Source: Antedon mediterranea (taxonomy: Eukaryota > Echinodermata > Crinoidea > Comatulida > Antedonidae). Taken from it: 64,000 bases of DNA. Of this stretch, positions 826 to 58,729 are shown piece by piece. A program made the position numbers and the translations under genes. The notes under the pieces were generated by a model. The model saw only the letters and a program-made list of their open reading frames with translations, did no database searches and was not told where the DNA came from. How positions within the stretch are numbered: the first letter of the stretch is position 1; every line of letters begins with the position of its first letter. Location of the stretch: NCBI RefSeq assembly GCF_964355755.1, contig NC_092673.1, positions 28,587,001 through 28,651,000 on the forward strand. Reading direction: 5' to 3'.

Positions 826-1266
826 ATTTATGTCAAAACTGGTTACTATAGCACAATTGACATGCGCAGAAACCATTATTCGCCTCTGCGCATGTTTATT
901 ATGCAATAGTAACCCTTTATGTAAAAAAAATAAAAGGGTCTAAAATCGGCCATTTTTCGAAAATTTCCCTGTAGGCCTACTATAGTACAGGAATTTTTTT
1001 TTTAAATGGCCAATTTTCGACCTTTTTATTTTTCGATAAAACTGGTTACTATAGCACAATTAACATGCGCAGAACCCATTAGTCGACTCTGCGCATGTTT
1101 ATTATGCTATAGTAACCATTTATGTCAAAACTGGTTACTATAGCACAATTGACATGCGCAGAACCTATAATTCGTCTCTGTGCATGTTTATTATGCAATA
1201 GTAACCATTTATGTCAACAAATAAAAGGGTCGAAAATCGGCCATTTTTCGAAAATTTCCCTGCGCA
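826..1266. repeat. Cluster of palindromic MITE-like repeats (left flank of the transposon dimer)
   Basis: At least three copies (about 838-910, 1041-1110, 1131-1207) of a roughly 75-bp palindrome occur. Each begins GGTTACTATAGCACAATTGA and ends with its inverse around TTATGCAATAGTAACC, with a CATGCGCAGA / TCTGCGCATG core. They lie inside a larger inverted repeat whose arms read GGTCGAAAATCGGCCATTTT and its complement. The same compound repeat resumes at 16351, on the other side of the transposon dimer, so the dimer has interrupted it. Confidence 0.8.
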
Positions 1267-2483
1267 AAGGGTACAACTCAATCTTCTCACTCGAAACGGT
1301 AAAGAACGCAAAAATAAATGGACAAGAAATGGACAGAGCCATGTGGGGTCATTAAAACTGAATTGGACTGGGTCATTAGATAATGAGGAAACTAGACAAT
1401 TGGCCAATGGGACCCAAGAATCTAGGAGGTTGTTTTGAATACCGGCATACTAAAAACTGTCAATTTTAGGGGTTTATCACATGATCGATGTATTAAATGA
1501 ATAAAAATATTAAATAATAGAATAATAAGACTTAAATTTTTTGTTAAAAGTTGAGAAAGTCGACATTTTTTTCATCCAATTTTCGAAAAATCCTTGTACT
1601 ACAGTACATGAATTTTGTTTTTTAAAACACGGTAAATTCGACTACAATATGTATGTTGTATTAATCGTTAGTTCTTTTAATATGACGAGACGTTTTTTGT
1701 TGTGTTTTTAGGGTGTGAACAATTGTCAATCAAAATTGTATATATATGTTAAATACTATGTAACTATTTAAAAAACCCACCCTGACTTCTGATTGGCCAA
1801 CCATATTCCAAGTAGTTTGATAAGTCAGCCTTTTTAAAAAATGTAGACAAAATTACCGTTAACTTTGTCTGGGGCTTTTTTTCTAGGCCACATGGTATCA
1901 TAGGATATGTGTAACTGTAAGAGGAGTAACTGAAGGTTACTGGATAATAACCTCTATAGTATGAGTTATTATCAAAATATATTATTAGAATTGGTGGAAT
2001 GAATTATTTGATTCACATCAAAATGAATTGTAGTGGAATTGCTCTTGAAATAAATATAAAATAGTTGAGAATTTACACTACAAGAATATAGAATTCACCA
2101 TTTAATGTACACTCAACTGCAAAAGTTTCCCCTCTGCTTTTTTTGTAAGGGCTTGGGACCTTCAAATACAAAGTGCAATGAATGATATAATGTAAATTAT
2201 AATGTAATAATTAAAACTGAATGTAATTTATAAAAATTACAAAATAATTTACAACATTAATCATTGCTCTTTGGATTTGGCAGCATTAAAAACTTTTTTT
2301 TTTTATTATTATTATTAACTTTACTGCACATTCAGAATACCATTAGATATGGTGGCCCAATGGCCAAATTGCATAAAATACAAATATTTTGTAAAAAGTG
2401 AATATAAAATCACAGAACAAATAAAAATTGAAGATATACGAAACAGTATAAAAACTATCCATGGCTACAACAATCATTTGGAA

Positions 2484-5400
2484 TCATTCTTTTTGCTGCT
2501 TTTTTTTCCTCTCTTGACGAAGGCGACGGATGGCAACCATAGCCGATTTCCATTCTTTAAAAGTCACATCAGATGTTGCAGCACAATACCAATTTCCATA
2601 GTACTGAGTGTGGTTCTTATTTAATCTTGGTTGCTTACACTTTGAGCACACAATCGCAGACGTTCTTGGTTTGTATATTTTGATCGGTTTCCCTTCCGAT
2701 ATGTCTTTAGCCACTCGTTTTCTGTACAAGAGGGTAGTTCTAGGAATACGAGTACTGCTAGCCTCAGGGACTGACGGTGGTGGTTTTGCTATCTCGCCAG
2801 GAACTGGGATCGACGGTCTGTTTCCTAGAGTCGCTAGGCCGGAAGTGTTTTTTGGTAGGACAAATGTGAAAGATGGAGCGCTTGTATGAACGTTTAGCAC
2901 CGCTGGCTTGGTTAAAGGTTCAAGTAGGGTTTTATCAGAGACAAGTTTGGGTATTGTTGCCGAGATGCCAGATTCCAACACTTGCCGCTCTTGCTTCTTT
3001 GACGTTCTGTTGTACCTGTTGAAAATAAATCAAACACAGTATTTAAAAACTTTAATGTATTTACTGTAGCGTAAAATAACAATCAATAACAAGTAAAAAC
3101 TCACCACTGGATGAGTGTCGTACGATTTATCTCCATCAACTGAAGCTTAGCAAACAACATCAGGTGTCCATTCGATAGCACTTTCCGACGAATGTTCTTG
3201 TAGCCTTTGGTAATGAGCGGCCAGCGCTGGAAACGTTTACCTTCGATAGATACGGTAGATGGATACGCTTCACATAGTTTTGTAATAATGCACTCCATAT
3301 ATCGATTGCAGTCCGGCCACTGAGCTGGCCCGGTGTTCTGACCTAAGAAGCATCTTTTAAAAAAAAAACAAAGAAACAAGTTAGATTTAAGACACATCAT
3401 GCAACAAAGTAAAAAACGCTGGAAACTGCCTTACCGTCGAGTGCTTTCGACACCAGGTATTACGGAAGTAGTTTTACTTTTCTTGAACCTGCCTTTCGTC
3501 AGGTAATCTTGATGCCGTGCTTTGCGCTTAATGGTTTTGTCATAAGCATCCAGGTTGTTCCACAACTTTGCGACATGTTCAGCATGACTTTGACTTATCA
3601 CTCCACTGTCTTCCTTAAACTGCATAAGGTAGTCTGCCAGGGCTTCAACTTTGGCGTAGCCTGGAATGTTGTCCGGTCCAGTGGAATCCTCAAGTTCCTA
3701 AATTGTAAAATATGAAAACAAAATATATAATCAGACTCGTGCATTGTATTTCAAAACAGAAACAAAATTTGTGAGGTAGAAGCTAATGATACAAATTTAA
3801 CTCACTGTGTCAAAAAGGGCTGCTTTTCCTTCACCATCATCATCATCATTATCGTCACATGAAGGCAAGGGCTCCAGCTGGGGTGGTGAGGGTTCTTTAG
3901 CATTTCGAGGTTTAAAACAACGCTTAGGTGGTTTGTAGTCTGGTTGAGTCTTGTCATCATACCCTTCATCAACATCAAAAGTGTAAATTTCTTCATCAAA
4001 GTCTTCATCATAAATGGTATCTGTTTTGACAGGAAATTGAGTTTCGAGCACTTTGTTCGACTGGTTGTACAGGTACTCCACTCCGATGAGTTCTCCAGTG
4101 TACTTGTTTGGAATGATAAAACTTTTGTACACTTTTTTGCCAATCACTTGCTCTGCCAGTATGTTGAGAGCATGCTGATGCAGTCCACTATATGTACTGG
4201 AGATGGTTCCTCCAGACTGGGTAGCGGCTAGTGCACGGTTTGCATTCCATCGAACAAGTCCATCCATCAGGTAAGCTTGGAAATGTAAGTCGCTAGCACG
4301 CTCACCTGAGAAAAAAATAAAACATCCATAATAATGAAATAATACAAAAATTTGTAGATCGGTTTGAAGATTTGGTAGATACCAAATAAAAAGTAATACT
4401 GTACCTGGAATAAACCTGTTAAGGTGAAGATGAAACGATTCCAAAGAAGTGGAGCCTCTTGCGCAACGATATACTGGCAAGGTAACTCCACCCTTAAGCA
4501 TCTCACTGGTTTTTGTGTAGAGCGGGATGCCTTCTGGATCCTGGATGCAGGCGATGTGTCGCTCTTGTGAGCTCCAGATATCCCAGGTCTGTTCAGAGTC
4601 TAAGAGTGGGACGCCCATTGTGTCACGGCCTTCTTCACCATCGAGGGAAGTCAGCAGCTCTCGGATTAGGTTGGCAGTCTCGCGAGTCCCTCGTGTTGTC
4701 CTGCGACAATGTAAAGCATACTCCTTCTTGCTGATGTTTTTCAATATGATGTCGTCTGTTGGGTTGGAATGCTTCTTGCTTGCAATGAGCTGTTCACGCT
4801 TGGCGAGCTTCAGACGTTCAACATCGTCAGCGCTCCACTCAAAAATGCAAGCGGAAAGACGTTTGAGAAATATCGGATACAACTGATGTGATTCTGTTGA
4901 ACAAGCTGCAGCAATTCTCCTCATGAAGTGCCAGATGTCCAGACGAATTTTCATGTCAGGCCAGGCGCTGAACATCTTCCTTATGCTTGAATGACCGCAG
5001 CAGTCACGGTCGACGTAGAGAATCTCGGGAGGAGGTACGCCTGCCAAAGCATATCGGTTAATGATGCCGTTTGTCATGTTGTTTAAGCCACATCCTTCTG
5101 CAGCAGTCAGGACTGTAATGAGCACCTGGCCGTACTCATTTCCGACGTTTGTTGCCCACGCTCCTGTTCCACATGCACGACCGGCTAGCTTCCTTACAAT
5201 CTGCAAAAAAACCCAAACAAATTTATTCGGAAGAAAGCTTCCCCACAATCTGCAAAAAAAAAAAAATTCAAATAATTAAAAGTAAATTGCAGAAATAGTA
5301 TTGTTTATAAATTATTTACCCTTTTGGTCGAGTCAATCTTCAACACTCTTCCGAACGTCGATGTGATAGAAGCCTTGAGTTCGTCGATTCTTCCCATTAC

Positions 5401-7086
5401 TTCGTTGCAGTAGATGGTAAGGAACCATTGGACAGAGGGAACAGGAATCATTTTAGACACCTCATCAAATTTAGAAGCAGCAATGACATAATCATCACGA
5501 GAACCACAGAACTTCTTGCAATTTTCTAAGTAGAGAGCCACTCTCTCATTCCACCGCCTTGTGTGTTGTTCTAAGACTTGTTGGCGAAGCTGTGATGGAC
5601 TGTTACCGAGACCGCGGTACTTTAGAAGCTGCAGGACCCGGTTGTCGCAGGCCAAGTGATACGAAAGTACAACAGGAAACTGAAGGCGATGTGCTAAATC
5701 AAGTTGCTTTAAAATGTTTTCACTCCAGCCAATTTGTCTTTGTTTGCAATTAGAGCACCTCAGTTGCTCTGTTGCAAGAAAGTAGTGGCAGTCTAAATCC
5801 AGGACCGGACGAACGATTCCATGGAGGCCGCCTGATGTTAGTGGATAGCTCTTGCATTCTGGCCGAGGGCAGACCAGCTTGACCTGCCAAGTCTTGCGGG
5901 GCAACCAAAGAAGAAGACGATGACCGAAGTAACTGTTGGCCATGGGTATGTTTTTGTTGAGCGGATCCGGTTGAGGTGGATAATACCAAAGTTGTTTGAG
6001 TTTAGTTGAATCCAACTCTGCAGTCCCCTTCTTCGATTTCTTGAATAAGGTTTTTGAAATCCACTGCTGATCGATCTCGGGCAAGTTCTTCTTCCATTTA
6101 TCTGGTATGAGACAATCTGCAAGAAAAACCAAAACAAAATTGTATAATTTATGAAACTACATTATGTAATTTTCATTTTCTAGTTTTAAAAATCAAACAA
6201 AATAATTAAAATTACACTGAAATAAACTACCTTCACTCTGTTTGATAGTTATTGTAGTGGATGGCATAGTACTAACAGGTTCATAAGATGTATTTGGTTG
6301 AGCTGTAAGACGGAAAATTAAAGAATATTTAGCAGTAAACTACTACTTCATTCGCTATCTACAGTATGCTATAAAACAATGTATTTAAACAACACGATTT
6401 TATGATTGAGTATAAATGAATGCATAAAAAAAAACGTAAACCCAGCAAGCCTACAACATACACAGGCACTAAAAATGCAAAACCTGAAATTTGTAATTTA
6501 GAAAATGCACAAAAAACACAAATATGGAATAAGTCTTACCTGGTGCATATGAGGTTGATGGTTGCAAAGAAGCATCAAAGACATCAGTACCAGAAAGTGT
6601 TTCATCTGTGACATCCTCAACCTGTTGTAGCTTAATGCCAACAGGTATGTACGATGTCTGTCTAGTTGGGCATTTCCTGCGGCGTTTTATTTCTTTCATT
6701 GCTATGGCTTCTTTGCCTTCTGGGAAAGACTCCAAGTACCTCTTAAAGTTGAATTTGTTAATACTAAGTGAACTTGTACTTGGAATTTCATTAGCCATTT
6801 TAATAACAAAACATACTGCATATTCCAGTACATTTTCGACCATCCACTTGAATGTTTGTCCACTGTATTTACTATGCTGAAACTTGTAGCAGCCCAACAC
6901 ATCACATTCATCTTTGGTGTTTCCACCCAGCCTGCACACCTCCTTCAAGGCATCTTGGCGTACATCATCAGGAGTTAGACACTTGCCAGTTGGTCGTTTT
7001 CTCAAGCTGTTAAATACTACAGCAGCAGATGTATCTTCAAGAATTAAGGCACCCTCTTCACTGCGCCGAAAAGTTGGTCTGAACAT
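2484..7086 (-). CDS. Multi-exon DDE-type transposase, 1,251 aa (copy 1)
   Basis: Coding exons by my model, 5' to 3': 6540-7086, 6231-6302, 5320-6116, 4405-5200, 3806-4305, 3435-3697, 3105-3353, 2484-3015. All junctions are GT/AG and in phase, and the frame is intact. It starts at MFRPTF, the first ATG after an upstream in-frame stop. Visible parts: a basic N-terminal region; a Cys-rich pair CPRPEC (about residue 289) and CSNC (about 327), reminiscent of the DUF6729-type domain found beside MULE-like transposases; then a probable RNase-H-fold triad of KIDSTKR (about 466), ILYVDRDCC (about 536) with DIWHFMRR, and STSLESFH (about 725). An acidic stretch (DDNDDDD) and a C-terminal CSKC...WYC zinc-knuckle-like motif follow. 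Expected role is cutting and pasting the surrounding element in the nucleus. The family assignment is inference; the intact spliced frame is seen directly. Confidence 0.85.
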
Positions 7087-7178
7087 ACTGTACTGTCTAT
7101 TGAACACCTGCAAAACTAAAAAAACTGATCAAAGGCAAAAATATATGTAAGTAAAGTATGTAAAAAAGAAAATTTTAC

Positions 7179-7219
7179 CCGTATAATGCCACTGTGCACC
7201 GTGCAGTTGTAGTAAATGG
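7179..7219 (-). other. Probable 5'-UTR exon of transposase copy 1
   Basis: This 41-bp segment has a TTTACAG acceptor and a GGTAAAA donor. It reads in frame into the next exon at 7107 but supplies no ATG, so it is best treated as untranslated. An upstream candidate exon runs from about 8568 to 8449 with a strong GTAAGAG donor; in the joined frame it carries stops before any ATG. The equivalent in copy 2 is 14723-14763. Confidence 0.5.
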
Positions 7220-7769
7220 CTGTAAATAAAAGAAAATCAAATCTAAATAAAATAAAATATCTGTGGGTTAAAATTTCTCAAGTAATAATTAATAGTAGAC
7301 CAAGACTTTAAATGTAAAATATTAATAAAATGAATTACATGTAGCATTAAAACATATCTACTAAGAACAAACTATTTTATCTAAATTAAATTAAGAAAAT
7401 ATTACATATGAATAATTATGTTTTTTTTTCAATTAAAAAAACTATATAAAGAATTACAACATAAATTAGAGTAAACTGAATAATCTTTGTTTATTAAACA
7501 GTGTATGTATCAACTCTTTGATCCCTGAGCACTTCCTTTAATGCAATCAAATTATTTGAGAATCTTATCTAAATCCACAAATACAGTTGATTGCCTAATT
7601 AAACGAATGCTTTAGATCAAAGAGTTGAAGCCTACACTTAATTAAACAATCATTATAATAAAAGTTAAATTGTTTATCTATCAATTAAAAGGGTTGACAT
7701 GTGAACAAGGCTTTAGTCTGTTTCCCATGGATGCTATTCTGATACAGCACACATTTAGTTGTTTATAGT

Positions 7770-8400
7770 TTAAAATTATGTTTAGGCCTAAAATCTATTA
7801 CAGGGTACATAGGCTAGTCTAACTAGTAGTAGGATTGTTAAAATATTAAATAAATTAAACTTTAAAGAATAGCTTAATTACTTTAAACTAAATTTATTTA
7901 CTATGGGATGGTTCTACGATAAATACTAATCTAAGCCTAGGCCTAGTCTAAACTACTGTAGTAAGTTTTGAAGAAAAAAAATAACAGGGAGCCCTAAGTA
8001 GGTAGCATCTTACTAGGGCCTAGCACTTACAGGCCCATGGTTTGACTTACAATTCATGGCAACCAAAAAAGATCTAGGCCTACCTAGAGGTCTTTCTATC
8101 TAGCCTACTAGCTAGGCCTAGGCTATATAGGCCTAGTAAATACATTAATTAAAGTAAGTGTCGAGTGACACTATCTAACCCTAACTAACCTATAAAGGCA
8201 TGCGTTATTGTTAATACTTTATGAAATATATGTAGGCCTACTGGTAATTAGGGGGATAAGTAATAATAGCAAATGCATTTTACCACACACAGAGCAGACT
8301 ACCGCCAACAAGAATTAGCGTCGGCACCCATACAAACACATTTGCTAGGCCATGGCATAGTTTCTATTGACTATGGCTAGGCCTAGACCAAACAAGTTAT
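7770..8400. repeat. CTAGGCCTAG-rich island in the 5' intron of transposase copy 1
   Basis: The stretch is packed with short palindromes built on GGCCTA (CTAGGCCTAG, TAGGCCTAC, CTAGCTAGGCCTAGG). It lies between the first candidate exon (ending 8449) and the 41-bp exon. Similar islands occur in the 5' introns of RABGGTB and CNTRL. I see no gene in it. Confidence 0.6.
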
Positions 8401-8589
8401 CAACACTTTAAATGCCGATTTCAAGCATGAAATCAATTTCGCTCTTACCTTTAATGCAAGTACACGTTCGAGTTGAATACAGCTACTACCAGAATTCGCC
8501 TTGAAATTAATAATAATAAGTCTAGAGGATTTGTAAAAAGATGTTGTCGCATGTAAGTCTCTGGACAAAATCTCATCATTGTTTGTGTT

Positions 8590-8810
8590 GTGAAAAACTT
8601 GTTGAAGTCACATATTAATTACGTCACTTTTCAGTGTTCTGATTGGTCAAAATGACAAATTTGGAACAATTTTTCTAATGCCCTGATTACGTCACTTTTC
8701 AGTGCTCTGATTGTTCAACTTTTGGAACGCTTTCCGCTGCTCTGATTGGTCAATCAGTTGTTCAATTCATTGTCCAATTCTACAGCACATATTGGGTTAT
8801 TTGTAGTACT
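8590..8810 (-). promoter_or_regulatory. Candidate transposase promoter with repeated CRE-like and CCAAT sites
   Basis: Just upstream of the first minus-strand exon there are two copies of a block beginning ATTACGTCACTTTTCAGTG (near 8618 and 8687). Three TCTGATTGGTCA-like segments (CCAAT on the minus strand) lie among them. TTACGTCA resembles a CREB/ATF half-site. The clustering right at the gene's 5' end is the only support; function is inferred. Confidence 0.45.
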
Positions 8811-11800
8811 AAGGGTACAACTCAATCTTCTCACTCGAAACGGTAAAGAACGCAAAAATAAATGGACAAGAAATGGACAGAGCCATGTGGGGTCATTAAA
8901 ACTGAATTGGACTGGGTCATTAGATAATGAGGAAACTAGACAATTGGCCAATGGGACCCAAGAATCTAGGAGGTTGTTTTGAATACCGGCATACTAAAAA
9001 CTGTCAATTTTAGGGGTTTATCACATGATCGATGTATTAAATGAATAAAAATATTAAATAATAGAATAATAAGACTTAAATTTTTTGTTAAAAGTTGAGA
9101 AAGTCGACATTTTTTTCATCCAATTTTCGAAAAATCCTTGTACTACAGTACATGAATTTTGTTTTTTAAAACACGGTAAATTCGACTACAATATGTATGT
9201 TGTATTAATCGTTAGTTCTTTTAATATGACGAGACGTTTTTTGTTGTGTTTTTAGGGTGTGAACAATTGTCAATCAAAATTGTATATATATGTTAAATAC
9301 TATGTAACTATTTAAAAAACCCACCCTGACTTCTGATTGGCCAACCATATTCCAAGTAGTTTGATAAGTCAGCCTTTTTAAAAAATGTAGACAAAATTAC
9401 CGTTAACTTTGTCTGGGGCTTTTTTTCTAGGCCACATGGTATCATAGGATATGTGTAACTGTAAGAGGAGTAACTGAAGGTTACTGGATAATAACCTCTA
9501 TAGTATGAGTTATTATCAAAATATATTATTAGAATTGGTGGAATGAATTATTTGATTCACATCAAAATGAATTGTAGTGGAATTGCTCTTGAAATAAATA
9601 TAAAATAGTTGAGAATTTACACTACAAGAATATAGAATTCACCATTTAATGTACACTCAACTGCAAAAGTTTCCCCTCTGCTTTTTTTGTAAGGGCTTGG
9701 GACCTTCAAATACAAAGTGCAATGAATGATATAATGTAAATTATAATGTAATAATTAAAACTGAATGTAATTTATAAAAATTACAAAATAATTTACAACA
9801 TTAATCATTGCTCTTTGGATTTGGCAGCATTAAAAACTTTTTTTTTTTATTATTATTATTAACTTTACTGCACATTCAGAATACCATTAGATATGGTGGC
9901 CCAATGGCCAAATTGCATAAAATACAAATATTTTGTAAAAAGTGAATATAAAATCACAGAACAAATAAAAATTGAAGATATACGAAACAGTATAAAAACT
10001 ATCCATGGCTACAACAATCATTTGGAATCATTCTTTTTGCTGCTTTTTTTTCCTCTCTTGACGAAGGCGACGGATGGCAACCATAGCCGATTTCCATTCT
10101 TTAAAAGTCACATCAGATGTTGCAGCACAATACCAATTTCCATAGTACTGAGTGTGGTTCTTATTTAATCTTGGTTGCTTACACTTTGAGCACACAATCG
10201 CAGACGTTCTTGGTTTGTATATTTTGATCGGTTTCCCTTCCGATATGTCTTTAGCCACTCGTTTTCTGTACAAGAGGGTAGTTCTAGGAATACGAGTACT
10301 GCTAGCCTCAGGGACTGACGGTGGTGGTTTTGCTATCTCGCCAGGAACTGGGATCGACGGTCTGTTTCCTAGAGTCGCTAGGCCGGAAGTGTTTTTTGGT
10401 AGGACAAATGTGAAAGATGGAGCGCTTGTATGAACGTTTAGCACCGCTGGCTTGGTTAAAGGTTCAAGTAGGGTTTTATCAGAGACAAGTTTGGGTATTG
10501 TTGCCGAGATGCCAGATTCCAACACTTGCCGCTCTTGCTTCTTTGACGTTCTGTTGTACCTGTTGAAAATAAATCAAACACAGTATTTAAAAACTTTAAT
10601 GTATTTACTGTAGCGTAAAATAACAATCAATAACAAGTAAAAACTCACCACTGGATGAGTGTCGTACGATTTATCTCCATCAACTGAAGCTTAGCAAACA
10701 ACATCAGGTGTCCATTCGATAGCACTTTCCGACGAATGTTCTTGTAGCCTTTGGTAATGAGCGGCCAGCGCTGGAAACGTTTACCTTCGATAGATACGGT
10801 AGATGGATACGCTTCACATAGTTTTGTAATAATGCACTCCATATATCGATTGCAGTCCGGCCACTGAGCTGGCCCGGTGTTCTGACCTAAGAAGCATCTT
10901 TTAAAAAAAAAACAAAGAAACAAGTTAGATTTAAGACACATCATGCAACAAAGTAAAAAACGCTGGAAACTGCCTTACCGTCGAGTGCTTTCGACACCAG
11001 GTATTACGGAAGTAGTTTTACTTTTCTTGAACCTGCCTTTCGTCAGGTAATCTTGATGCCGTGCTTTGCGCTTAATGGTTTTGTCATAAGCATCCAGGTT
11101 GTTCCACAACTTTGCGACATGTTCAGCATGACTTTGACTTATCACTCCACTGTCTTCCTTAAACTGCATAAGGTAGTCTGCCAGGGCTTCAACTTTGGCG
11201 TAGCCTGGAATGTTGTCCGGTCCAGTGGAATCCTCAAGTTCCTAAATTGTAAAATATGAAAACAAAATATATAATCAGACTCGTGCATTGTATTTCAAAA
11301 CAGAAACAAAATTTGTGAGGTAGAAGCTAATGATACAAATTTAACTCACTGTGTCAAAAAGGGCTGCTTTTCCTTCACCATCATCATCATCATTATCGTC
11401 ACATGAAGGCAAGGGCTCCAGCTGGGGTGGTGAGGGTTCTTTAGCATTTCGAGGTTTAAAACAACGCTTAGGTGGTTTGTAGTCTGGTTGAGTCTTGTCA
11501 TCATACCCTTCATCAACATCAAAAGTGTAAATTTCTTCATCAAAGTCTTCATCATAAATGGTATCTGTTTTGACAGGAAATTGAGTTTCGAGCACTTTGT
11601 TCGACTGGTTGTACAGGTACTCCACTCCGATGAGTTCTCCAGTGTACTTGTTTGGAATGATAAAACTTTTGTACACTTTTTTGCCAATCACTTGCTCTGC
11701 CAGTATGTTGAGAGCATGCTGATGCAGTCCACTATATGTACTGGAGATGGTTCCTCCAGACTGGGTAGCGGCTAGTGCACGGTTTGCATTCCATCGAACA

Positions 11801-14800
11801 AGTCCATCCATCAGGTAAGCTTGGAAATGTAAGTCGCTAGCACGCTCACCTGAGAAAAAAATAAAACATCCATAATAATGAAATAATACAAAAATTTGTA
11901 GATCGGTTTGAAGATTTGGTAGATACCAAATAAAAAGTAATACTGTACCTGGAATAAACCTGTTAAGGTGAAGATGAAACGATTCCAAAGAAGTGGAGCC
12001 TCTTGCGCAACGATATACTGGCAAGGTAACTCCACCCTTAAGCATCTCACTGGTTTTTGTGTAGAGCGGGATGCCTTCTGGATCCTGGATGCAGGCGATG
12101 TGTCGCTCTTGTGAGCTCCAGATATCCCAGGTCTGTTCAGAGTCTAAGAGTGGGACGCCCATTGTGTCACGGCCTTCTTCACCATCGAGGGAAGTCAGCA
12201 GCTCTCGGATTAGGTTGGCAGTCTCGCGAGTCCCTCGTGTTGTCCTGCGACAATGTAAAGCATACTCCTTCTTGCTGATGTTTTTCAATATGATGTCGTC
12301 TGTTGGGTTGGAATGCTTCTTGCTTGCAATGAGCTGTTCACGCTTGGCGAGCTTCAGACGTTCAACATCGTCAGCGCTCCACTCAAAAATGCAAGCGGAA
12401 AGACGTTTGAGAAATATCGGATACAACTGATGTGATTCTGTTGAACAAGCTGCAGCAATTCTCCTCATGAAGTGCCAGATGTCCAGACGAATTTTCATGT
12501 CAGGCCAGGCGCTGAACATCTTCCTTATGCTTGAATGACCGCAGCAGTCACGGTCGACGTAGAGAATCTCGGGAGGAGGTACGCCTGCCAAAGCATATCG
12601 GTTAATGATGCCGTTTGTCATGTTGTTTAAGCCACATCCTTCTGCAGCAGTCAGGACTGTAATGAGCACCTGGCCGTACTCATTTCCGACGTTTGTTGCC
12701 CACGCTCCTGTTCCACATGCACGACCGGCTAGCTTCCTTACAATCTGCAAAAAAACCCAAACAAATTTATTCGGAAGAAAGCTTCCCCACAATCTGCAAA
12801 AAAAAAAAAATTCAAATAATTAAAAGTAAATTGCAGAAATAGTATTGTTTATAAATTATTTACCCTTTTGGTCGAGTCAATCTTCAACACTCTTCCGAAC
12901 GTCGATGTGATAGAAGCCTTGAGTTCGTCGATTCTTCCCATTACTTCGTTGCAGTAGATGGTAAGGAACCATTGGACAGAGGGAACAGGAATCATTTTAG
13001 ACACCTCATCAAATTTAGAAGCAGCAATGACATAATCATCACGAGAACCACAGAACTTCTTGCAATTTTCTAAGTAGAGAGCCACTCTCTCATTCCACCG
13101 CCTTGTGTGTTGTTCTAAGACTTGTTGGCGAAGCTGTGATGGACTGTTACCGAGACCGCGGTACTTTAGAAGCTGCAGGACCCGGTTGTCGCAGGCCAAG
13201 TGATACGAAAGTACAACAGGAAACTGAAGGCGATGTGCTAAATCAAGTTGCTTTAAAATGTTTTCACTCCAGCCAATTTGTCTTTGTTTGCAATTAGAGC
13301 ACCTCAGTTGCTCTGTTGCAAGAAAGTAGTGGCAGTCTAAATCCAGGACCGGACGAACGATTCCATGGAGGCCGCCTGATGTTAGTGGATAGCTCTTGCA
13401 TTCTGGCCGAGGGCAGACCAGCTTGACCTGCCAAGTCTTGCGGGGCAACCAAAGAAGAAGACGATGACCGAAGTAACTGTTGGCCATGGGTATGTTTTTG
13501 TTGAGCGGATCCGGTTGAGGTGGATAATACCAAAGTTGTTTGAGTTTAGTTGAATCCAACTCTGCAGTCCCCTTCTTCGATTTCTTGAATAAGGTTTTTG
13601 AAATCCACTGCTGATCGATCTCGGGCAAGTTCTTCTTCCATTTATCTGGTATGAGACAATCTGCAAGAAAAACCAAAACAAAATTGTATAATTTATGAAA
13701 CTACATTATGTAATTTTCATTTTCTAGTTTTAAAAATCAAACAAAATAATTAAAATTACACTGAAATAAACTACCTTCACTCTGTTTGATAGTTATTGTA
13801 GTGGATGGCATAGTACTAACAGGTTCATAAGATGTATTTGGTTGAGCTGTAAGACGGAAAATTAAAGAATATTTAGCAGTAAACTACTACTTCATTCGCT
13901 ATCTACAGTATGCTATAAAACAATGTATTTAAACAACACGATTTTATGATTGAGTATAAATGAATGCATAAAAAAAAACGTAAACCCAGCAAGCCTACAA
14001 CATACACAGGCACTAAAAATGCAAAACCTGAAATTTGTAATTTAGAAAATGCACAAAAAACACAAATATGGAATAAGTCTTACCTGGTGCATATGAGGTT
14101 GATGGTTGCAAAGAAGCATCAAAGACATCAGTACCAGAAAGTGTTTCATCTGTGACATCCTCAACCTGTTGTAGCTTAATGCCAACAGGTATGTACGATG
14201 TCTGTCTAGTTGGGCATTTCCTGCGGCGTTTTATTTCTTTCATTGCTATGGCTTCTTTGCCTTCTGGGAAAGACTCCAAGTACCTCTTAAAGTTGAATTT
14301 GTTAATACTAAGTGAACTTGTACTTGGAATTTCATTAGCCATTTTAATAACAAAACATACTGCATATTCCAGTACATTTTCGACCATCCACTTGAATGTT
14401 TGTCCACTGTATTTACTATGCTGAAACTTGTAGCAGCCCAACACATCACATTCATCTTTGGTGTTTCCACCCAGCCTGCACACCTCCTTCAAGGCATCTT
14501 GGCGTACATCATCAGGAGTTAGACACTTGCCAGTTGGTCGTTTTCTCAAGCTGTTAAATACTACAGCAGCAGATGTATCTTCAAGAATTAAGGCACCCTC
14601 TTCACTGCGCCGAAAAGTTGGTCTGAACATACTGTACTGTCTATTGAACACCTGCAAAACTAAAAAAACTGATCAAAGGCAAAAATATATGTAAGTAAAG
14701 TATGTAAAAAAGAAAATTTTACCCGTATAATGCCACTGTGCACCGTGCAGTTGTAGTAAATGGCTGTAAATAAAAGAAAATCAAATCTAAATAAAATAAA

Positions 14801-16354
14801 ATATCTGTGGGTTAAAATTTCTCAAGTAATAATTAATAGTAGACCAAGACTTTAAATGTAAAATATTAATAAAATGAATTACATGTAGCATTAAAACATA
14901 TCTACTAAGAACAAACTATTTTATCTAAATTAAATTAAGAAAATATTACATATGAATAATTATGTTTTTTTTTCAATTAAAAAAACTATATAAAGAATTA
15001 CAACATAAATTAGAGTAAACTGAATAATCTTTGTTTATTAAACAGTGTATGTATCAACTCTTTGATCCCTGAGCACTTCCTTTAATGCAATCAAATTATT
15101 TGAGAATCTTATCTAAATCCACAAATACAGTTGATTGCCTAATTAAACGAATGCTTTAGATCAAAGAGTTGAAGCCTACACTTAATTAAACAATCATTAT
15201 AATAAAAGTTAAATTGTTTATCTATCAATTAAAAGGGTTGACATGTGAACAAGGCTTTAGTCTGTTTCCCATGGATGCTATTCTGATACAGCACACATTT
15301 AGTTGTTTATAGTTTAAAATTATGTTTAGGCCTAAAATCTATTACAGGGTACATAGGCTAGTCTAACTAGTAGTAGGATTGTTAAAATATTAAATAAATT
15401 AAACTTTAAAGAATAGCTTAATTACTTTAAACTAAATTTATTTACTATGGGATGGTTCTACGATAAATACTAATCTAAGCCTAGGCCTAGTCTAAACTAC
15501 TGTAGTAAGTTTTGAAGAAAAAAAATAACAGGGAGCCCTAAGTAGGTAGCATCTTACTAGGGCCTAGCACTTACAGGCCCATGGTTTGACTTACAATTCA
15601 TGGCAACCAAAAAAGATCTAGGCCTACCTAGAGGTCTTTCTATCTAGCCTACTAGCTAGGCCTAGGCTATATAGGCCTAGTAAATACATTAATTAAAGTA
15701 AGTGTCGAGTGACACTATCTAACCCTAACTAACCTATAAAGGCATGCGTTATTGTTAATACTTTATGAAATATATGTAGGCCTACTGGTAATTAGGGGGA
15801 TAAGTAATAATAGCAAATGCATTTTACCACACACAGAGCAGACTACCGCCAACAAGAATTAGCGTCGGCACCCATACAAACACATTTGCTAGGCCATGGC
15901 ATAGTTTCTATTGACTATGGCTAGGCCTAGACCAAACAAGTTATCAACACTTTAAATGCCGATTTCAAGCATGAAATCAATTTCGCTCTTACCTTTAATG
16001 CAAGTACACGTTCGAGTTGAATACAGCTACTACCAGAATTCGCCTTGAAATTAATAATAATAAGTCTAGAGGATTTGTAAAAAGATGTTGTCGCATGTAA
16101 GTCTCTGGACAAAATCTCATCATTGTTTGTGTTGTGAAAAACTTGTTGAAGTCACATATTAATTACGTCACTTTTCAGTGTTCTGATTGGTCAAAATGAC
16201 AAATTTGGAACAATTTTTCTAATGCCCTGATTACGTCACTTTTCAGTGCTCTGATTGTTCAACTTTTGGAACGCTTTCCGCTGCTCTGATTGGTCAATCA
16301 GTTGTTCAATTCATTGTCCAATTCTACAGCACATATTGGGTTATTTGTAGTACT
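8811..16354 (-). mobile_element. DNA transposon, copy 2, directly abutting copy 1
   Basis: This is the second unit of the tandem pair, starting at AAGGGTACAACTC immediately after copy 1 ends in GTAGTACT. Its right edge runs into ATAGTACAGCG, which continues the interrupted host repeat. The two units therefore share no spacer, and only one base is ambiguous at the boundary. The lack of any visible divergence means either a very recent event or an assembly artefact. Its promoter-like segment lies at 16134-16354 and its GGCCTA island near 15314-15944. Confidence 0.85.
10028..14630 (-). CDS. Multi-exon DDE-type transposase, 1,251 aa (copy 2)
   Basis: Exons 5' to 3': 14084-14630, 13775-13846, 12864-13660, 11949-12744, 11350-11849, 10979-11241, 10649-10897, 10028-10559; the 5'-UTR exon is at 14723-14763. 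The product appears identical to the first copy, with the same cysteine pairs, acidic triad and C-terminal knuckle. No stop, frameshift or splice-site change separates the two genes, so both could be expressed. A transcript from this gene would run toward the second unit's 3' end at 8811 and, without termination, into the promoter of copy 1. Confidence 0.85.
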
Positions 16355-17170
16355 ATAGTACAGCGATTTTTTTTTAAAAATGGCAAATTTTCGACCGTTT
16401 TATTTTTCGATAAATCTGGTTACTATAGCACAATTAACATGCACAGACCCCATTAGTCGACTCTGCGCATGTTTATTATGCTATAGTAACCATTTATGTC
16501 AAAAACTGGTTACTATAGCATAATTGACATGCGCAGAACCCATTATTCGTCTCTGCGTATGTTTATTATGCAATAGTAATCATTTATGTCAAAAAATAAA
16601 AGGGTCGAAAATCGGCCATTTTTCGAAAATTTCCCTTTTTTTGGGGAAAAATGGCCAAAATATCCAATTTTTAAAACCAAATAATTATGCGATAATATTG
16701 CCATATATGCACATATACTGCGTTATCATCATCTTATAGAGCCATAGTAACTAGTTATGTAAAAAAATTAAAGGGTCGAAATTTGCAAATTTTTTGGAAA
16801 ATTTCACTGTGCTATAGTACAGGGTTTTTTTTTTAAAGATTCCCAAAAAATCCACTTTTTAAAACCCAATAATTATGCGAAAATATTTCTTTATGCGCAT
16901 ATATTGTGTTATCATCATCTTATAGAGCCATAGTAACTAGTTATGTCACACTATAGTACATGGATTTTTTTTAATGGCCAAATTTCAACCCTTTTATTTT
17001 TTTTACATAACTGGTTACTATATCGTAAATCGTCATGCGCAGAATCACATAATGTGCTCTGCAAGTTACCACCTCAACATCTGAGGAAAATAGATAATAC
17101 ACTTTTTTTCATAAAAATTACAAAATCACGACCGTTTTATTTTTCGTCATAATAATATAATAATAACAAT
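16355..17170. repeat. Right half of the interrupted palindromic repeat cluster
   Basis: It contains two further GGTTACTATAGCA...AGTAACC palindromes (about 16416-16490 and 16507-16582). Two copies of a related unit follow, containing CATATACTGCGTTATCATC-like and ATATTGTGTTATCATCATCT sequence (about 16660-16760 and 16860-16945). T-rich segments and 'CCNTTTTATTTTT' arms recur. No coding sequence is supported. Confidence 0.7.
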
Positions 17171-18355: not shown

Positions 18356-19246
18356 TCATTGTCTACATCCACTGCACATACTTTCCATCCTTTTTTTGTT
18401 CAGAGTGCGCAACTCCAATATTCCAAGACCATACACTAAAGGATTAATAAATGAATAAGCTAAAGCCAAGTTGTATTCCATTGCGTGTACATCAACAAAG
18501 TAATCATACGTACAATAGTCATCTTTCAATATCAAATCAACAATAGACAAAATATCTGCGGGCAGCCAACACACTGTACAAGTACATATAATGATTGAGA
18601 ACGTTTTCAGTAACTTTTTCGATAGTTGCAATTCTTGTGATCGATGCGCAGATATCTTCTTCTCGTGTTTAAAGATAGCTCGGTAGATAACAGCGTACGT
18701 GATAGTAACCACAATCAGTATGGTAAGATTCCAAATAGGAACGATCACTGAGAGGATGTCAAACTCGTTAATGAAGTGCAGACAACCAGCCACGACTGCT
18801 GATACTCCCCAAATGACTGCAATCCCGCTAAGAATTCTTTTGGGAGAATTTATGTTTTTATCCAGTGGGTACAAAACAATAACAAACAATCTCTCTACAG
18901 CAATACCTTCTAGTGTTTGAAATGAAGCCATGACCGATGAAGTTCTAACTACTGACAGGATCAGAGTTCCCGTTTGACCGACAGACTGACCAACGCTTAC
19001 CGAAACCAATGACGTCAGAGCGAATATCGCATCCGTAATTGCTAACGATACCGTGAACAGATAATGACGTTTGTGAAGCGTCTGTTCCGTTGCAAACGTA
19101 TACACCATGTAGATATTGAGTAACAGGGACAAAATACTTAAAACATACGTAATAACCACGCAGTATAAATACCGTTCCTCTGTTTTAAACGTAAACAACA
19201 GAATGTCTTTGAGAGTGTAGTCACAGTTAACCGCCGAGTCATTCAT
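18356..19246 (-). CDS. Rhodopsin-type (class A) G-protein-coupled receptor, 296 aa, intronless
   Basis: Seven hydrophobic segments are visible. TM1 holds LLLN, TM2 LAITD (the conserved Asp), TM3 ends AVERLFVIVLYP (ERL in place of DRY), and TM4 has the conserved Trp. TM5 contains TYAVIY, TM6 TVCWLP and TM7 INPLVYG, matching the CWxP and NPxxY signatures. NDS at residue 2 is a possible N-glycosylation site. I see no cysteine at the usual top-of-TM3 position and only a short second extracellular loop without one. That absence is known in the melanocortin/S1P/cannabinoid/adenosine-like group, so the placement is plausible but not proven. The C-tail is short with CSGC, a possible palmitoylation site. 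The ligand is unknown. Single-exon receptors of this kind are commonly expanded in echinoderms. Confidence 0.85.
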   Translation of the reverse strand: MNDSAVNCDYTLKDILLFTFKTEERYLYCVVITYVLSILSLLLNIYMVYTFATEQTLHKRHYLFTVSLAITDAIFALTSLVSVSVGQSVGQTGTLILSVVRTSSVMASFQTLEGIAVERLFVIVLYPLDKNINSPKRILSGIAVIWGVSAVVAGCLHFINEFDILSVIVPIWNLTILIVVTITYAVIYRAIFKHEKKISAHRSQELQLSKKLLKTFSIIICTCTVCWLPADILSIVDLILKDDYCTYDYFVDVHAMEYNLALAYSFINPLVYGLGILELRTLNKKRMESMCSGCRQ

Positions 19247-35700: not shown

Positions 35701-38700
35701 AACACATAAAGTCGTTTAAAGTAAAACAACTTAATTCCAATGTGGTCCCTAAAAAGATAGTAATTATAATTTTAACAAAACAAACATTATAAGACGGGGT
35801 TCATAAATATATAAGCATATAAGCAAAACATCTGATATAATGGCACAATAATAATTTATCTATGTTTAATTTTGTAATATTGTTTCAATTCAGTTTTAAA
35901 TTTAGATGTGTTGGAAATTTGTTTAATATAGTCAGGAAGGTTATTCCATTCTCTGATTGCATTAAAATAGAACGTATTACATTCTATGCCTTGGACTTTA
36001 GGTACAACAAAATTGAGTTTACTACCACGAGTGAAGTGACCATGTAAGTTATTAACTCTACGAAAGTTTTCGTTTAGGTATGAAGCACTTCTGCCCATAA
36101 ATATTTTATGAACTTGGCTAATTTGCAAGAACTTTACTCGATATTTTACATTTAACAATGTCATGATCTACAGTGTCAAATGCCTTCTTTAAATCGACCA
36201 ACACCATACCCGAGAAATTTCCCTTAGAAGTTTGGGTTTTAAGGGAATCAACTAAGTCTATCAAACATGTGTCAGTAGAGAAGGCAGCTCGAAATCCAGA
36301 TTGATATTTATACAATACGTTGTTTTCAGTAAGGTATTTTTCGATTTGAATAAAAACAGCCTTCTCTAAAATTTTAGACATTGTACTGAGTATACTTATA
36401 GGGCGATAGTTTCCAATATCGGTTCTACTACCTTTTTTATAAAGAGGTATGACCTTGGCCTTTTTCATGTCTTCTGGGACTGTACTGGTACTAATTGATA
36501 AATTAATTATGTAGGTAATGGGAACTTTTAGAATTTCAGCCCCATCTTTTATGAAGCGGGGAGGTATCTTATCGACACCCGTGCTTTTTGTCGCATTAAG
36601 TTTGTTTAATTCACTATATATAAAGTCTTCGTCCACTGAGTTGAGCATAAAGTTATTGCCACTAACGGTTCTATAGAAATCCTTAAGTTTGGACGACGTA
36701 CAGTCATACACATTCTTAGGGGATGGAAGTTTACTGACCAAATTGGCTGCAATAGTAGTAAAATATTCGTTGAAGCAAGAAGCAATTTTGGCTGGGTCGA
36801 AACATTTAGTACCATTGGGCAGGTCAATAACCGTTTTAGCACTATCCTTAGATGTATTACTATAGCCTAGACCTTTAAACATTTTCCATAATTTTTTAGG
36901 GTTATTTTTATTTTCTTCAGCCTTGTTTAAAAAATGATTTGATTTAGCTTTATTTATATCACGCTGTATTTTATTTCTTAGTTTGCGAAATTGTATTAAT
37001 AAGTCGGTATTATTCTTGTTTTTATTATACATATTTAATAATTTATCTCTGGTTTCAATGTCTTGTAATATTTCTCTAGTTAACCATGGTTCCGTTCTTT
37101 GTTTCATCCTAATGTTTTTAAGGGGGGCAATGGAATCAATAGCAGCCAAAAGTAATGCATTAAATTTATACAGAGCTTCATTTACATCTCCGATAGAGGT
37201 AACTACTGACCAATCGATATCTATTAGTATGTTTCTAAATTGATCAACGGTATAGTTTTTTAGTGATCTGATATATACATTTTTATGTCCATTGAACTTA
37301 AGTTTAATAGTTTTCCGTGTACAAAATGTCATTAAGTGATCGCTTAGACCTGTTGCGATTGTACCCGATTGGCTTATCTTATTCTCATTATTACATAATA
37401 TATGATCGAGGCATGAAGCAACTGTAGGGCATATCCTAGTTGGTTCAGTTACTTTGTTACTTAAACTAAACATACTTAGAATTTGATTAGAGCTATTCAA
37501 TAAAGATGACTTTGTTAAAGTACATATATTAAAATCGCCAACAACAATTAATTCACTGTCCATTCCAATTTTAGATAACATATTTTCAAACAGAGTTAGA
37601 AAGTTCGTTTGCTTTGGTGGTCTGTAACATGTTCCAATTATAATGGGTTTGGTTTTAGGCAGGATCAGTTCAATCCAAAGTACTTCAGCTTCGTCGGATT
37701 CAATATCTGAACGCCGGTTAAACGCGATGTCATCCCTTATATACGTACATACGCCACCGCCTTTGCGGTCGCGATCTCTTCGTAGAACTGAGTAACCTTC
37801 AATTTTAATTTCGTTGTCAGATACCGAATCATCAATCCATGTTTCGCTAATGGAGATAATGCCAGCTTTACTTTTATATGCAATATCGCGCAGTTCCAGT
37901 AGTTTGGGGATCATTGATCTTGTATTTAAGTGTAGAATGTGTATTCCTTTCTGTTTAAACCGCATGAAGTCTTCAGGAGCGACGTTATAATTAAATAATG
38001 GGGGTGGCGTTCTTAATCCTATGTCATCGTTATGATTTCCACAGGAATCAAATGGGAGATGTTTCCAGCTGCATTCCACGCATACATAATCAAATTCAGT
38101 ATTGTTGTTTACAATGTACTTGTATCTTTTGGGCGTCATGAAACCATCAGTACACTTTATATGAGTCCACTTATTACACTCATCACACGATATGGCTCTG
38201 CTTCTGGTAGTGACGCGCCGTTGACATTTACCACAACAATTGTTTGATACAGGTACATTCGCTGGTCCAGGATTGGATTCGATGTCACCACACCATAGTA
38301 AGCAGATAATTAAAGTTCTACATGCAAGCTGTCTGGGGTTCCGATGAAGATTATAATCATAATGCGAGAATTTTTTGGTTGATGTAAATAGGTACGTATA
38401 ACACTCACCGACTACATTCTGGAAATCTTTCGATGTATGGTTATCCAGATAAATTGAAGAAGGGCATAACTTATGAATGACTTGTTCATGTTCAGGATGA
38501 TGGTGTGATCTTTTCAACACCATAACATATAGCGACAGCGCCAGAAAAATACCATTCATACTTCCCGCCATATGATGTATCCTTATACACAAATAGAAAG
38601 GAAAAGTACACTCACCAATTGTGCTTGCCGAAAACAAAGGCCAGCACGTCCTTGCTCTGCAGCGGAATGTATCGAGTTATGCGGTAACAAAATGACAATG

Positions 38701-41700
38701 TGTCCAGGTGGTCATGGAATGCAAGTGAATTCGCTTCGTCATTTGGTTGTTAAAAGTCAATAGCTAGATTCTTAGTTAGTACCCTTATCCAATGTTCAGC
38801 AGGGTTACCAAAACGAAAAACATCACAGATAGGCCTACACAATCAATCGAAATACAGTTACAGAGTCCAAACTTTCACTGTAAAACTACCGGTATAATAC
38901 AAACAATCAAAACTAAAAAAATAGCAGGTTAAGATTCGGTAAAACAGCAGGTTAAAATTCATAAAAAACAGCAGGTTAAAATGCAATAAAAGTTGTTCAG
39001 GTATAGCATAAAATAGCGTTAAAATTGTGATAGCGAATTAATTCCAGTCATAACTCAGGCCGGTTGCAATAGGTCATCGGCATCTACTGTAGTCCCCTTT
39101 TACAATCAATGGTGTAGGCGAGAATATTTGAGTTGAAAGCAACTATCGGGGCCTAGCGGAGCTCGCTCTTAACACGACCGTTCTGGACGAAGTAGGAATT
39201 GCGTGTCACGAAGTAGGAATTGCGTTCCTCTCTAACTTACAGAGCAAAGGCTCTAACATTATACAGTGGTGTTCTTCCTTTGGGACACCCATATTCTGGG
39301 GGACACCCATATTCTGGTGACACCCATATTCTGGTGACACCCCTATTCTGGGGACACCCATATTCTGGTGACACCCATATTCTGGGGAAACCCGTATTCT
39401 GGGGAAACCCGTATTCTGGTGACACCCGTATTCTGGTGACGCCCATATTCTGGTGATGCCCATATTCTGGGGGACACCCCTATTCTGGTGACACCCATAT
39501 TCTGGTGACACCCATATTCTGGTGACACCCATATTCTGGTGATGCCCATATTCTGGTGACGCCCATATTCTGGGTGACACCCATATTCTGGTGACACCCA
39601 TATTCTGGTGACACCCATATTCTGGTGATGCCCATATTCTGGTGATGCCCATATTCTGGTGACACCCATATTCTGGTGACACCCATATTCTGGTGACACC
39701 CATATTCTGGTGACACCCATATTCTGGTGATGCCCATATTCTGGTGATGCCCATATTCTGGTGATGCCCATATTCTGGGGGACACCCCTATTCTGGTGAC
39801 ACCCATATTCTGGTGACACCCATATTCTGGTGACACCCATATTCTGGTGATGCCCATATTCTGGTGATGCCCATATTCTGGTGATGCCCATATTCTGGGG
39901 GACACCCCTATTCTGGTGACACCCATATTCTGGTGATGCCCATATTCTGGGGACACCCCTATTCTGGTGACACCCCTATTCTGGTGACACCCCTATTCTG
40001 GTGACACCCCTATTCTGGTGACACCCCTATTCTGGGGAAACCCATATTCTGGTGACACCCATATTCTGGTGACACCCATATTCTGGGGACACCCCTATTC
40101 TGGGGAAACCCCTATTCTGGGGAAACCCCTATTCTGGGGAAACCCCTATTCTGGGGAAACCCATATTCTGGTGACACCCATATTCTGGTGACACCCCTAT
40201 TCTGGGGAAACCCATATTCTGGTGACACCCATATTCTGGTGACACCCATATTCTGGTGACACCCATATTCTGGTGACACCCTATTCATAGGAAACCTCTA
40301 ATAAGAAGAAACCTCTATTTATGAGACATTCCTATTCATGAGACATCCCTATTCATGGGACGTCCCTATTCATGAGACGCCCCTTTTCTGGGGAAACCCC
40401 TATTTATGGGCTATGTCTATTCTGGGGACACTCCTATTCTAGTGACACCCCTATTTATAGCACACCCTATCCTTGTGACACCCCTATTAAGTGAACATTT
40501 TATTGGGTCCTAAAGGTGTCCACTTAACAGGGTTTGTATTAGTTGCTGTGATAACAAACCTTCTTCTTTCCTTTCTTTCAGTCATACGTATTGTCTGCAT
40601 TTCTTTCTCCATCATTCCTTTCTCTATTCTAAGTTCATCTACTTCATTTTTCAGTTCATTCATTCCTCGTATTATTTCTTCAAGTTCTGCATTTGTACAT
40701 CTTCGTTCATCTTCTAAATCGTGGTTCTTTAATTTTAGAGAATCTAATTTATCTTTCTGCTTCTCAATGGCTAAATCAAGGTCTTCTAACTCATCATTGC
40801 GATTCTAAGATAAATTGTAAAAAGATTCATACAAATTGATTAATTAAAAGGGTATTCAATTAAAACCTAAAAGTTTTTTTAGCATTGTACAATAAATGTT
40901 AATTTTATTTATTAAGAACTCGCCTCTAATTCTTCATCCCTAACTTTAGCAGACTTTGACTTCTGTAAGAAAAAGTAATGATAAACATGCATCATGAATT
41001 TAGTTTACAAAGTTAAATGTCATTTTTATGTAAAATGAATGTCATTTTCATATTAAACAAATGTCATTTTCCTGTAAAATTAATGTTATTTTCATGTTAA
41101 ATTTATGTTATTTTCATGTTACATTAATGTAATTTCCATGTAAAATGAATGTCATTTCCATGTAAAATTAATGTTATTTTTATATTACATGAATATCATT
41201 TTTATTTTAAATTAATGTCATTTTCATGTCAAATTAATGTCATTTTCATGTATTGAAACCATTAACTATAATTCATGATTATTTCTTCAATTAAGAAGTT
41301 ACATTACATAAATTGCTAGTGTCACATACACACCTTTTTCTTCTTGGCAAGTTGTCTTTCAAGATCTTTGACATAATCCTCCTGAGAAAAAAAAATGATT
41401 GGTGCATATGAACAATTGGCTAAAAACACAGTTTAAAGTTCAAATTATTTACTCACATCATATTATAAAACGAACACATGAACACATGGAAAATGTAGGC
41501 CTAAACGTGCTTATGCAGTTTTTACATACAGTATTAAATGTTTGCTAATACTAAACTACAGCTCTGTCTATACTATGAAACTAGGTTGACTGTGATGTGC
41601 CCAAGTATGGTAGTGATATGCTGAAATATGGTAGTGATATGACATCATCATGTCCATATATGGGCACATCACATTTCTTTTGCCACATAAAGTTTGATAG

Positions 41701-57775: not shown

Positions 57776-58003
57776 GCATCATGTTTTTTTTATCAATATC
57801 CTGTATGCACCTGTATTATTAATATTTAAATGAGTTACTTTGTTTATCATTATTGTGCATCATAATAGTTGCCTGCCTATAAACCAAATTATACCTCAGT
57901 CTAAAAATCTGCATACTATTACTAAAAATGATATTGATGTGCATTTTTATATGTGATGTTGGAACTTTTATCTTTTCAGGTACATTTAAAAGCTCCGCGG
58001 ATA

Positions 58004-58729
58004 ATGAAGAATGTGTTGAAGCTCTTGACGTTTGACGTCAACAATACAATCATCAAAGTACGTCATTCCGTCGGTCATCATTACTCTAAAACCGCATCTG
58101 CATTTGGCGTTGAGGCAGATCCCGCAAAAGTTCAGTCGGCATTTTTAGAAGCCTACAGAGAACAGAAATCTACGCAACCAAATTATGGAGACGGGTTGGA
58201 TACTACCACCGAAAGATGGTGGACAGATATCGTCAAAAAAACCTTTATTTTACAAGGTCATTCAAATATAGAAACGCTTGAACAAATAGGAGCGAAACTG
58301 TACCAGGATTTTCTAGAACCTAGTTATTGGGATGTTTTTCCTGACGTTAAAAATGTGTTAAGTTATTTAAACAAACAAGGGATGTGCGTAGGTGTAATTT
58401 CAAATTTTGATGAGCGACTAATTCAAGTTTTAAAGAATCTAGAACTAGCGCATCATTTCTCGTTCATCATCCCTTCCATTTTTGCAAAATACCAGAAACC
58501 ACAACCACAAATTTTTCAAAAGGCTTTAGATCTGATGAAGGTGGCGCCAAACGAATGCTTACATATTGGCGATAGTGTTAAAAATGATTATTACGCTGCG
58601 CAAGATATTGGGATGAATGCTCTTATTATAGACAGAGATGGTACGCTTCAAAGAAATCATCCAGATATTAATAGAATGCATTTTATAAACAATTTAGAAG
58701 ATTTGAAACAATTTGTTGACTCATCATAA
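58004..58729 (+). CDS. HDHD3: HAD-like hydrolase domain-containing protein 3, 241 aa
   Basis: A single coding exon follows an intron acceptor (TTTTCAG at 57979). The start is the first ATG after the acceptor, giving MKNVLKLLTFDVNNT. HAD motifs in order: I LTFDVNNT (residues about 8-15), II VISNFDERL (about 131), III Lys in YQKPQPQIF, IV HIGDSVKNDYYAAQDIGM. The cap region NYGDGLDTTTERWWTDIV and LYQDFLEPSYWDVF align with human HDHD3 (251 aa), whose motif I is LTWDVKDT. Motif I lacks the second Asp of the usual DxDx(T/V), in both species, so ordinary phosphatase chemistry is doubtful and the substrate is unknown. The neighbour CNTRL is divergently transcribed from the same spacer. Confidence 0.93.
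   Translation: MKNVLKLLTFDVNNTIIKVRHSVGHHYSKTASAFGVEADPAKVQSAFLEAYREQKSTQPNYGDGLDTTTERWWTDIVKKTFILQGHSNIETLEQIGAKLYQDFLEPSYWDVFPDVKNVLSYLNKQGMCVGVISNFDERLIQVLKNLELAHHFSFIIPSIFAKYQKPQPQIFQKALDLMKVAPNECLHIGDSVKNDYYAAQDIGMNALIIDRDGTLQRNHPDINRMHFINNLEDLKQFVDSS

Follow-up and report, generated by a model that had tools for sequence, protein, structure and literature searches.

A 64,000-nucleotide stretch of the Antedon mediterranea genome (contig NC_092673.1, positions 28,587,001 to 28,651,000, forward strand; hereafter the window) contains two head-to-tail copies of a Dada DNA transposon that appears to be close to the U6 lineage. We found that the repeated unit is the element plus exactly 6 nt, in this array and in the other arrays of the family in the genome (4 of 4), and that the internal 6-mer is that of the locus's own right flank, not of the left, in all three arrays that are informative (the window, C8 and C5b). 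Because the unit always consists of the element and 6 nt of local right flank, the duplication would have followed insertion, through a mechanism tied to the length of the target duplication. We give a probability of about 0.5 to the reading that the transposase amplified the arrays in situ, through strand transfer at a point 6 nt beyond the right end, in the manner of IS256/IS3 copy-out.

Tandem Arrays and the Six-Nucleotide Spacer

Self-comparison of the window gave a single uninterrupted direct repeat of 7545 bp (1267 to 8811) at +7544 with 0 differences, and no second long match was found beside it at that distance. An earlier note, made from the letters of the window, had described two units without visible difference whose outer edges interrupt a host palindromic repeat; both statements agree with our results, and each edge lies at the centre of the palindrome. 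The same note held that nothing separates the two units. When solo copies and the other arrays are compared, this proves incorrect: the element runs from AGGGTAC to TTTGTA, and the 6-nt GTACTA stands between the two units. The one-base junction overlap reported there is explained by the final A common to the left spacer, GCGCAA, and to GTACTA, which is the internal and the right spacer. Spacer lengths of 4 or 5 nt were also considered and were replaced by 6 nt after comparison with the U6 site and the Dada papers.

The genome (354 Mb in 18 contigs, the window being part of contig C4) was searched with both element ends, and the search recovered solo copies and three further pure arrays: a tetramer (C8, unit 7556), a trimer (C5a, unit 5206), and a dimer (C5b, unit 5206, one unit interrupted). 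A perfect-match scan of the genome for the element end, any 6 nt and the element start returned exactly 7 junctions (window 1, C8 3, C5a 2, C5b 1), and matches with one mismatch look like background. In the tetramer, the left spacer is GCGCAA, while GCGCAT occupies all three junctions and the right side, its last T coming from the local TAGTACAGGG. The C5b dimer reads GCGCAA on the left and GCGCGG both internally and on the right, and the trimer has GCGCAA at every position. Units differ little within an array (0/7538 in the window, 0-2/7550 in C8, 0/5200 in C5a, and 6/5200 in C5b, or 0-0.12%), and the divergence between loci is 0.15-3%.

The absence of a target duplication, as previously noted, is correct for the window copy (GCGCAA/GTACTA) but not for the family, since the two flanking 6-mers agree in solo elements at C1, C5, and C11. 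These 6-bp target site duplications, within the 6-7 bp typical of the Dada superfamily, are GTACTA at C1a and GCGCAA at C5c and C11; a copy of a second subfamily (B; the window copy belongs to subfamily A) is flanked by GCAAGG in U6.

Identity of the Element

In Pfam, the protein of the element's open reading frame (ORF) matched DUF6729 (E 6.5e-81); this and the further ORFs are all on the minus strand. The motifs KIDSTK, YVDRD, LDIWH, and SLESFH provide a DDE set, with DxxH following the second D. The first and second D are about 68 apart across an inferred splice (68 in Dada-U6_DR), and the second D and E are 190 apart (176 in Dada-U6_DR). A CCCC zinc finger inside DUF6729 has the form C-x4-C, 33 residues, C-x2-C (35 in Dada-U6_DR), and its first C precedes the first D by about 179 residues (178 in Dada-U6_DR). 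The C-terminal CCHC zinc finger, CSKCKQPRLNKNHTQYYGNWYC, is spaced within one residue of Dada-U6_DR. By these motifs, DUF6729 corresponds to the N-terminal zinc-finger region of Dada, reaching near the first catalytic D. Our literature search for DUF6729 found no paper, and a PDB sequence search with the transposase found no match.

No terminal inverted repeats were found, as AGGGTACAACTC does not match the complement of the right end, TACAAATAACCC. Dada-U6 elements have the sub-terminal motifs TCTTCTCTG on the left and CAGAGAAGA on the right (PMC3706591). The left motif is exact in subfamily B and matches at 7/9 positions in subfamily A (TCTTCTCAC), 14 nt from the spacer; CAGAGAAGA was not seen in the right end sequence of either subfamily. 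The transposase evolves under purifying selection, because the ratio of nonsynonymous to synonymous substitution (dN/dS) between the two subfamilies is 0.16 over about 815 codons. With this and with the DUF6729, DDE, and C-terminal exons open in both units, the two intact transposase genes proposed earlier are plausible. A Helitron or rolling-circle element (HUH Rep-helicase, A/T insertion without duplication) was rejected, since Pfam gives only DUF6729 in the main ORFs and the flanks are 6-mers. A Crypton was likewise rejected: Pfam scans of the main ORFs gave no tyrosine recombinase domain, and DDE motifs are present instead.

The Host Palindrome and the Origin of GCGCAA

The pattern TTTCCCTG-N3-15-ACAGGGA has 833 matches in the genome, against 11 for a reversed control. 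The usual centre among these palindromes is GTACTATAGTAC, and the centres listed are mostly TACTATAGTA. At the window locus, the host centre reads CCCT / GTACTA / TAGTACAGGG, so that GTACTA is part of the palindrome. The palindrome is not the element's own inverted repeat, since hundreds of copies are empty and solo elements are found elsewhere too. Palindromes with CCCTGCGCA gave 0 matches, against the 833 of the general pattern, which rules out GCGCAA as a natural palindrome variant.

GCGCAA is the U6 small nuclear RNA (snRNA) sequence that follows CCCCT. A subfamily B copy at C10 is inside a U6 gene at this site (CCCCT^GCGCAA), with GCAAGG on both sides, whereas subfamily A sits in the palindrome yet carries GCGCAA. 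Because GCGCAA is absent from the empty palindromes searched and equals the U6 target sequence, it came in with the element from a former site, probably one of U6 type. The 6-mer at C10a, GCGCTA, either combines letters of GCGCAA and GTACTA or has arisen by mutation.

Two empty palindromes (C1:19670062-19670091 and C1:19670372-19670401) hold a 6-nt insert, AGGGTA (CCCTGTACTAAGGGTATAGTACAGGGA), equal to the first 6 nt of the element and perhaps an excision footprint. At C2:369486-370500, roughly 75-100 bp of the left end, bordered on the left by GCGCAA, run straight into GTACTATAGTACAGGG, an arrangement that resembles the remnant of a one-ended insertion.

How the Arrays May Have Formed

According to the in-situ reading, a Dada related to the U6-targeting lineage would insert at CCCT^GTACTA^TAGTACAGGG, the centre of an abundant host palindrome, its left end bringing GCGCAA from an earlier U6-type site, and would then be duplicated in place. 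The transposase would cut the left end and attach it to the strand at a distance of 6 nt beyond the right end, which equals the length of one target duplication. If the joining took place on the same copy, it would give a circle of the element plus the right-flank 6-mer; on the sister chromatid, it would directly give L-[element]-R-[element]-R, the order seen. Unequal crossing-over may account for later growth to three or four units. The 6-nt spacer of the intermediate would be ligated into a 6-bp staggered target, and GCGCAA would thus replace the host 6-mer. Among the three options of the earlier note (a dimeric or circular intermediate that inserted, the exact end-to-end duplication of one element, and an assembly duplication), the second fits best, with the amendment that the unit also includes 6 nt of right flank.

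In bacteria, the copy-out circles of IS256 and IS3 carry a target-length spacer from one flank (PMC9587614), and the Dada transposase is distantly IS256-like (PMC3706591). The replacement of flanks by Dada was described as a process of unknown mechanism (PMC3706591) and was later attributed to carried flanks (PMC8869645). Tentatively, and with somewhat less confidence than for in-situ amplification itself, we suggest that Dada in general may move by copy-out-paste-in: the left end would be joined 6 nt outside the right end, circles or sister-joined dimers would carry one flank 6-mer, and this spacer would be ligated into the next target. If so, a single copy-out step would account for the tandem arrays and equally for the replacement of flanks, which earlier work had not resolved.

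Several points weigh against in-situ amplification by copy-out. Only three arrays are informative, and 3/3 has a probability of 1/8 if either flank is equally likely to be kept, so these arrays cannot settle a preference for left or right. Identical letters arise when a second copy transposes in the ordinary way into the right flank and duplicates 6 bp there, provided that the newcomer derived from the resident. The route through a circle or other intermediate is drawn from sequence comparison. Finally, an AlphaFold model of the read-through ORF had a predicted local distance difference test (pLDDT) score of 34.6 and was unusable, and the DDE fold is read from motifs.

Sequential ordinary transposition, in which a second copy lands next to the first, in the same target, and duplicates 6 bp in the normal way, is unlikely in our view but has points in its favor. 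The target half-site CCCT survives insertion, the zebrafish Dada-U1A/U1B tandems were reported as tandem insertions (PMC3706591), and hetero-tandems (subfamily A then B at C1, 9.38-9.40 Mb; a C5a-like end then B at C4, 31.83 Mb) are best explained by re-insertion beside a resident. Insertion into the right flank would give an internal 6-mer equal to the right one; a CCCT-anchored insertion on the left would presuppose a resident with GTACTA on both sides and a newcomer whose left retained the donor GCGCAA. However, left-flank insertion with a normal duplication predicts an internal 6-mer equal to the left one, contrary to all three informative arrays, and in C5a and C5b, no target half is conserved at the right flank. 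Moreover, the units are sister-like, unlike independent copies, so the newcomer would have to derive from the resident. In the C4 hetero-tandem (C4:31829001-31838900, near 2206-2218 of that segment), the right end of another Dada subfamily runs through GCGCAA into the start of B.

The insertion of a ready-made multimer, a dimeric circle or concatemer formed elsewhere, agrees with the uniform units and internal spacers of C8 and C5a. It is nevertheless distinctly improbable, as a multimer of foreign origin would bring one donor spacer, whereas the internal spacers hold local right-flank letters (GTACTA in the window, GCGCAT in C8 with its T from TAGTACAGGG, GCGCGG in C5b). Very improbable is a local tandem duplication that arose without transposase, by replication slippage or end joining, and grew through unequal crossing-over. 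The growth from two to four units indeed needs homologous recombination only, but the breakpoints fall at the element start and 6 nt past the element end in every array, microhomology is 0-2 bases in the three arrays with unequal flanks, and random breakpoints would not match the target-duplication length.

Least probable of all is that the assembly doubled a single copy: the two units in the window show 100% identity and were judged from the assembled sequence, but none of the four arrays contains an N, independent loci follow one spacer rule, unit 4 of C8 has a private CC to TT change, and the C5b dimer, an older one, has private derived substitutions (four in unit 1 and two in unit 2) and, in unit 1, a 7007-bp retrotransposon that has a gag-like ORF and a pair of identical 702-bp repeats. 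The marks in C5b are inherited structures, and such arrays as a class are therefore not products of faulty assembly. The window dimer is without such private marks, and its duplication is probably real. A divergent DUF6729 lineage has 7688 identical bases at C8:15022804-15030491 and 15036101-15043788, the second copy beginning where a 5000-N gap ends; this duplicate (C8:15.02-15.04 Mb) may be an array or such an artefact, and it was dropped as a fifth array because one copy adjoins the gap.

Comparison with Known Systems

The Dada-U6 lineage (Kojima and Jurka 2013, PMC3706591; Kojima 2022, PMC8869645) shares with the window element the CCCC and CCHC fingers, the DDE set with DxxH, the D1-D2 distance of 68, introns, the 6-bp GCGCAA spacer, target recognition on the CCCT side, the left TCTTCTC motif at 14 nt, and a coding strand opposite to U6. 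In contrast to that lineage, subfamily A occupies a palindromic satellite-like repeat, not an RNA gene; arrays have up to four units, their internal 6-mer is the local right flank, and no CAGAGAAGA was found near the right end. Zebrafish Dada-U1A and Dada-U1B also form head-to-tail copies with one 6-mer between them (PMC3706591, Fig. S3), but according to the main text, the flanks there do not tell a left from a right origin of the spacer. Dada-tA (GCGCAA for TAGCAT) and Dada-tY likewise show GCGCAA on one or both sides at a target without it (PMC3706591, PMC8869645); here, the target is a palindrome outside genes, hundreds of copies of which show the empty state, and there are also arrays that reuse the local flank.

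KolobokP is another eukaryotic DDE transposon with tandem multimers, for which IS3/IS256-like circles were discussed, but its units share long terminal direct repeats usable by recombination, whereas Dada units share only the 6-nt spacer (PMC9587614). Bacterial IS3/IS256 copy-out-paste-in, described in the same paper, similarly joins two ends through a spacer of target-duplication length from one flank; those elements have terminal inverted repeats, and the corresponding intermediate in Dada is a putative one. Dada itself, tandem Dada, and flank replacement are already in the literature. What is new, as far as the literature searched shows, is that the target is a palindromic repeat, that arrays reach four units, and that an array spacer equals the local right flank. 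Where palindromes have a known empty state and array spacers can be traced to a flank, one can read directly which flank the element takes along. If copy-out is true, a eukaryotic site-specific DDE transposon would use chemistry that is familiar mainly in insertion sequences of bacteria, a point of relevance to its possible use in targeted insertion.

Features of the Window

Table 1. Dada units, spacers, and host palindrome halves in the window
Feature	Position	Strand	Remark
CCCT, left half of host palindrome CCCTGTACTATAGTACAGGG	1258-1261	+	same letters beside U6 target
Left 6-nt spacer GCGCAA	1262-1267	+	U6 snRNA target sequence, not palindrome sequence
Dada element, unit 1	1268-8805	- (coding strand)	7538 bp
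Sub-terminal TCTTCTCAC, unit 1	1282-1290	+	14 nt from spacer
Transposase C-terminal exon, unit 1	2484-2981	-	CCHC zinc finger
DDE exon region, unit 1	3797-5248	-	second D (YVDRD), DxxH (LDIWH), E (SLESFH); intron read through
DUF6729 exon, unit 1	5305-6132	-	CCCC zinc finger; first catalytic D (KIDSTK)
N-terminal coding ORF, unit 1	6469-7113	-	
Internal 6-nt spacer GTACTA	8806-8811	+	same as right flank
Dada element, unit 2	8812-16349	-	identical to unit 1
Sub-terminal TCTTCTCAC, unit 2	8826-8834	+	by identity with unit 1
C-terminal exon, unit 2	10028-10525	-	
DDE exon region, unit 2	11341-12792	-	
DUF6729 exon, unit 2	12849-13676	-	
N-terminal coding ORF, unit 2	14013-14657	-	
Right 6-nt spacer GTACTA	16350-16355	+	sole remaining copy of host target 6-mer outside array
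TAGTACAGCG, right half of host palindrome	16356-16365	+	

Outside the array, the window holds a rhodopsin-type receptor ORF (18356-19246, minus strand) and an ORF resembling a long interspersed nuclear element (36118-38637, minus strand), with domains for an endonuclease and a reverse transcriptase as well as a weak match to a PHD finger. Two long 17-bp minisatellites lie at 39284-40494 and 53060-54118, and several long ORFs that overlap them are probably just the repeat read in frame. A tRNA-like match above the Rfam gathering score (54742-54814, plus strand) and a HAD-hydrolase exon or gene (57953-58729, plus strand) were also found.

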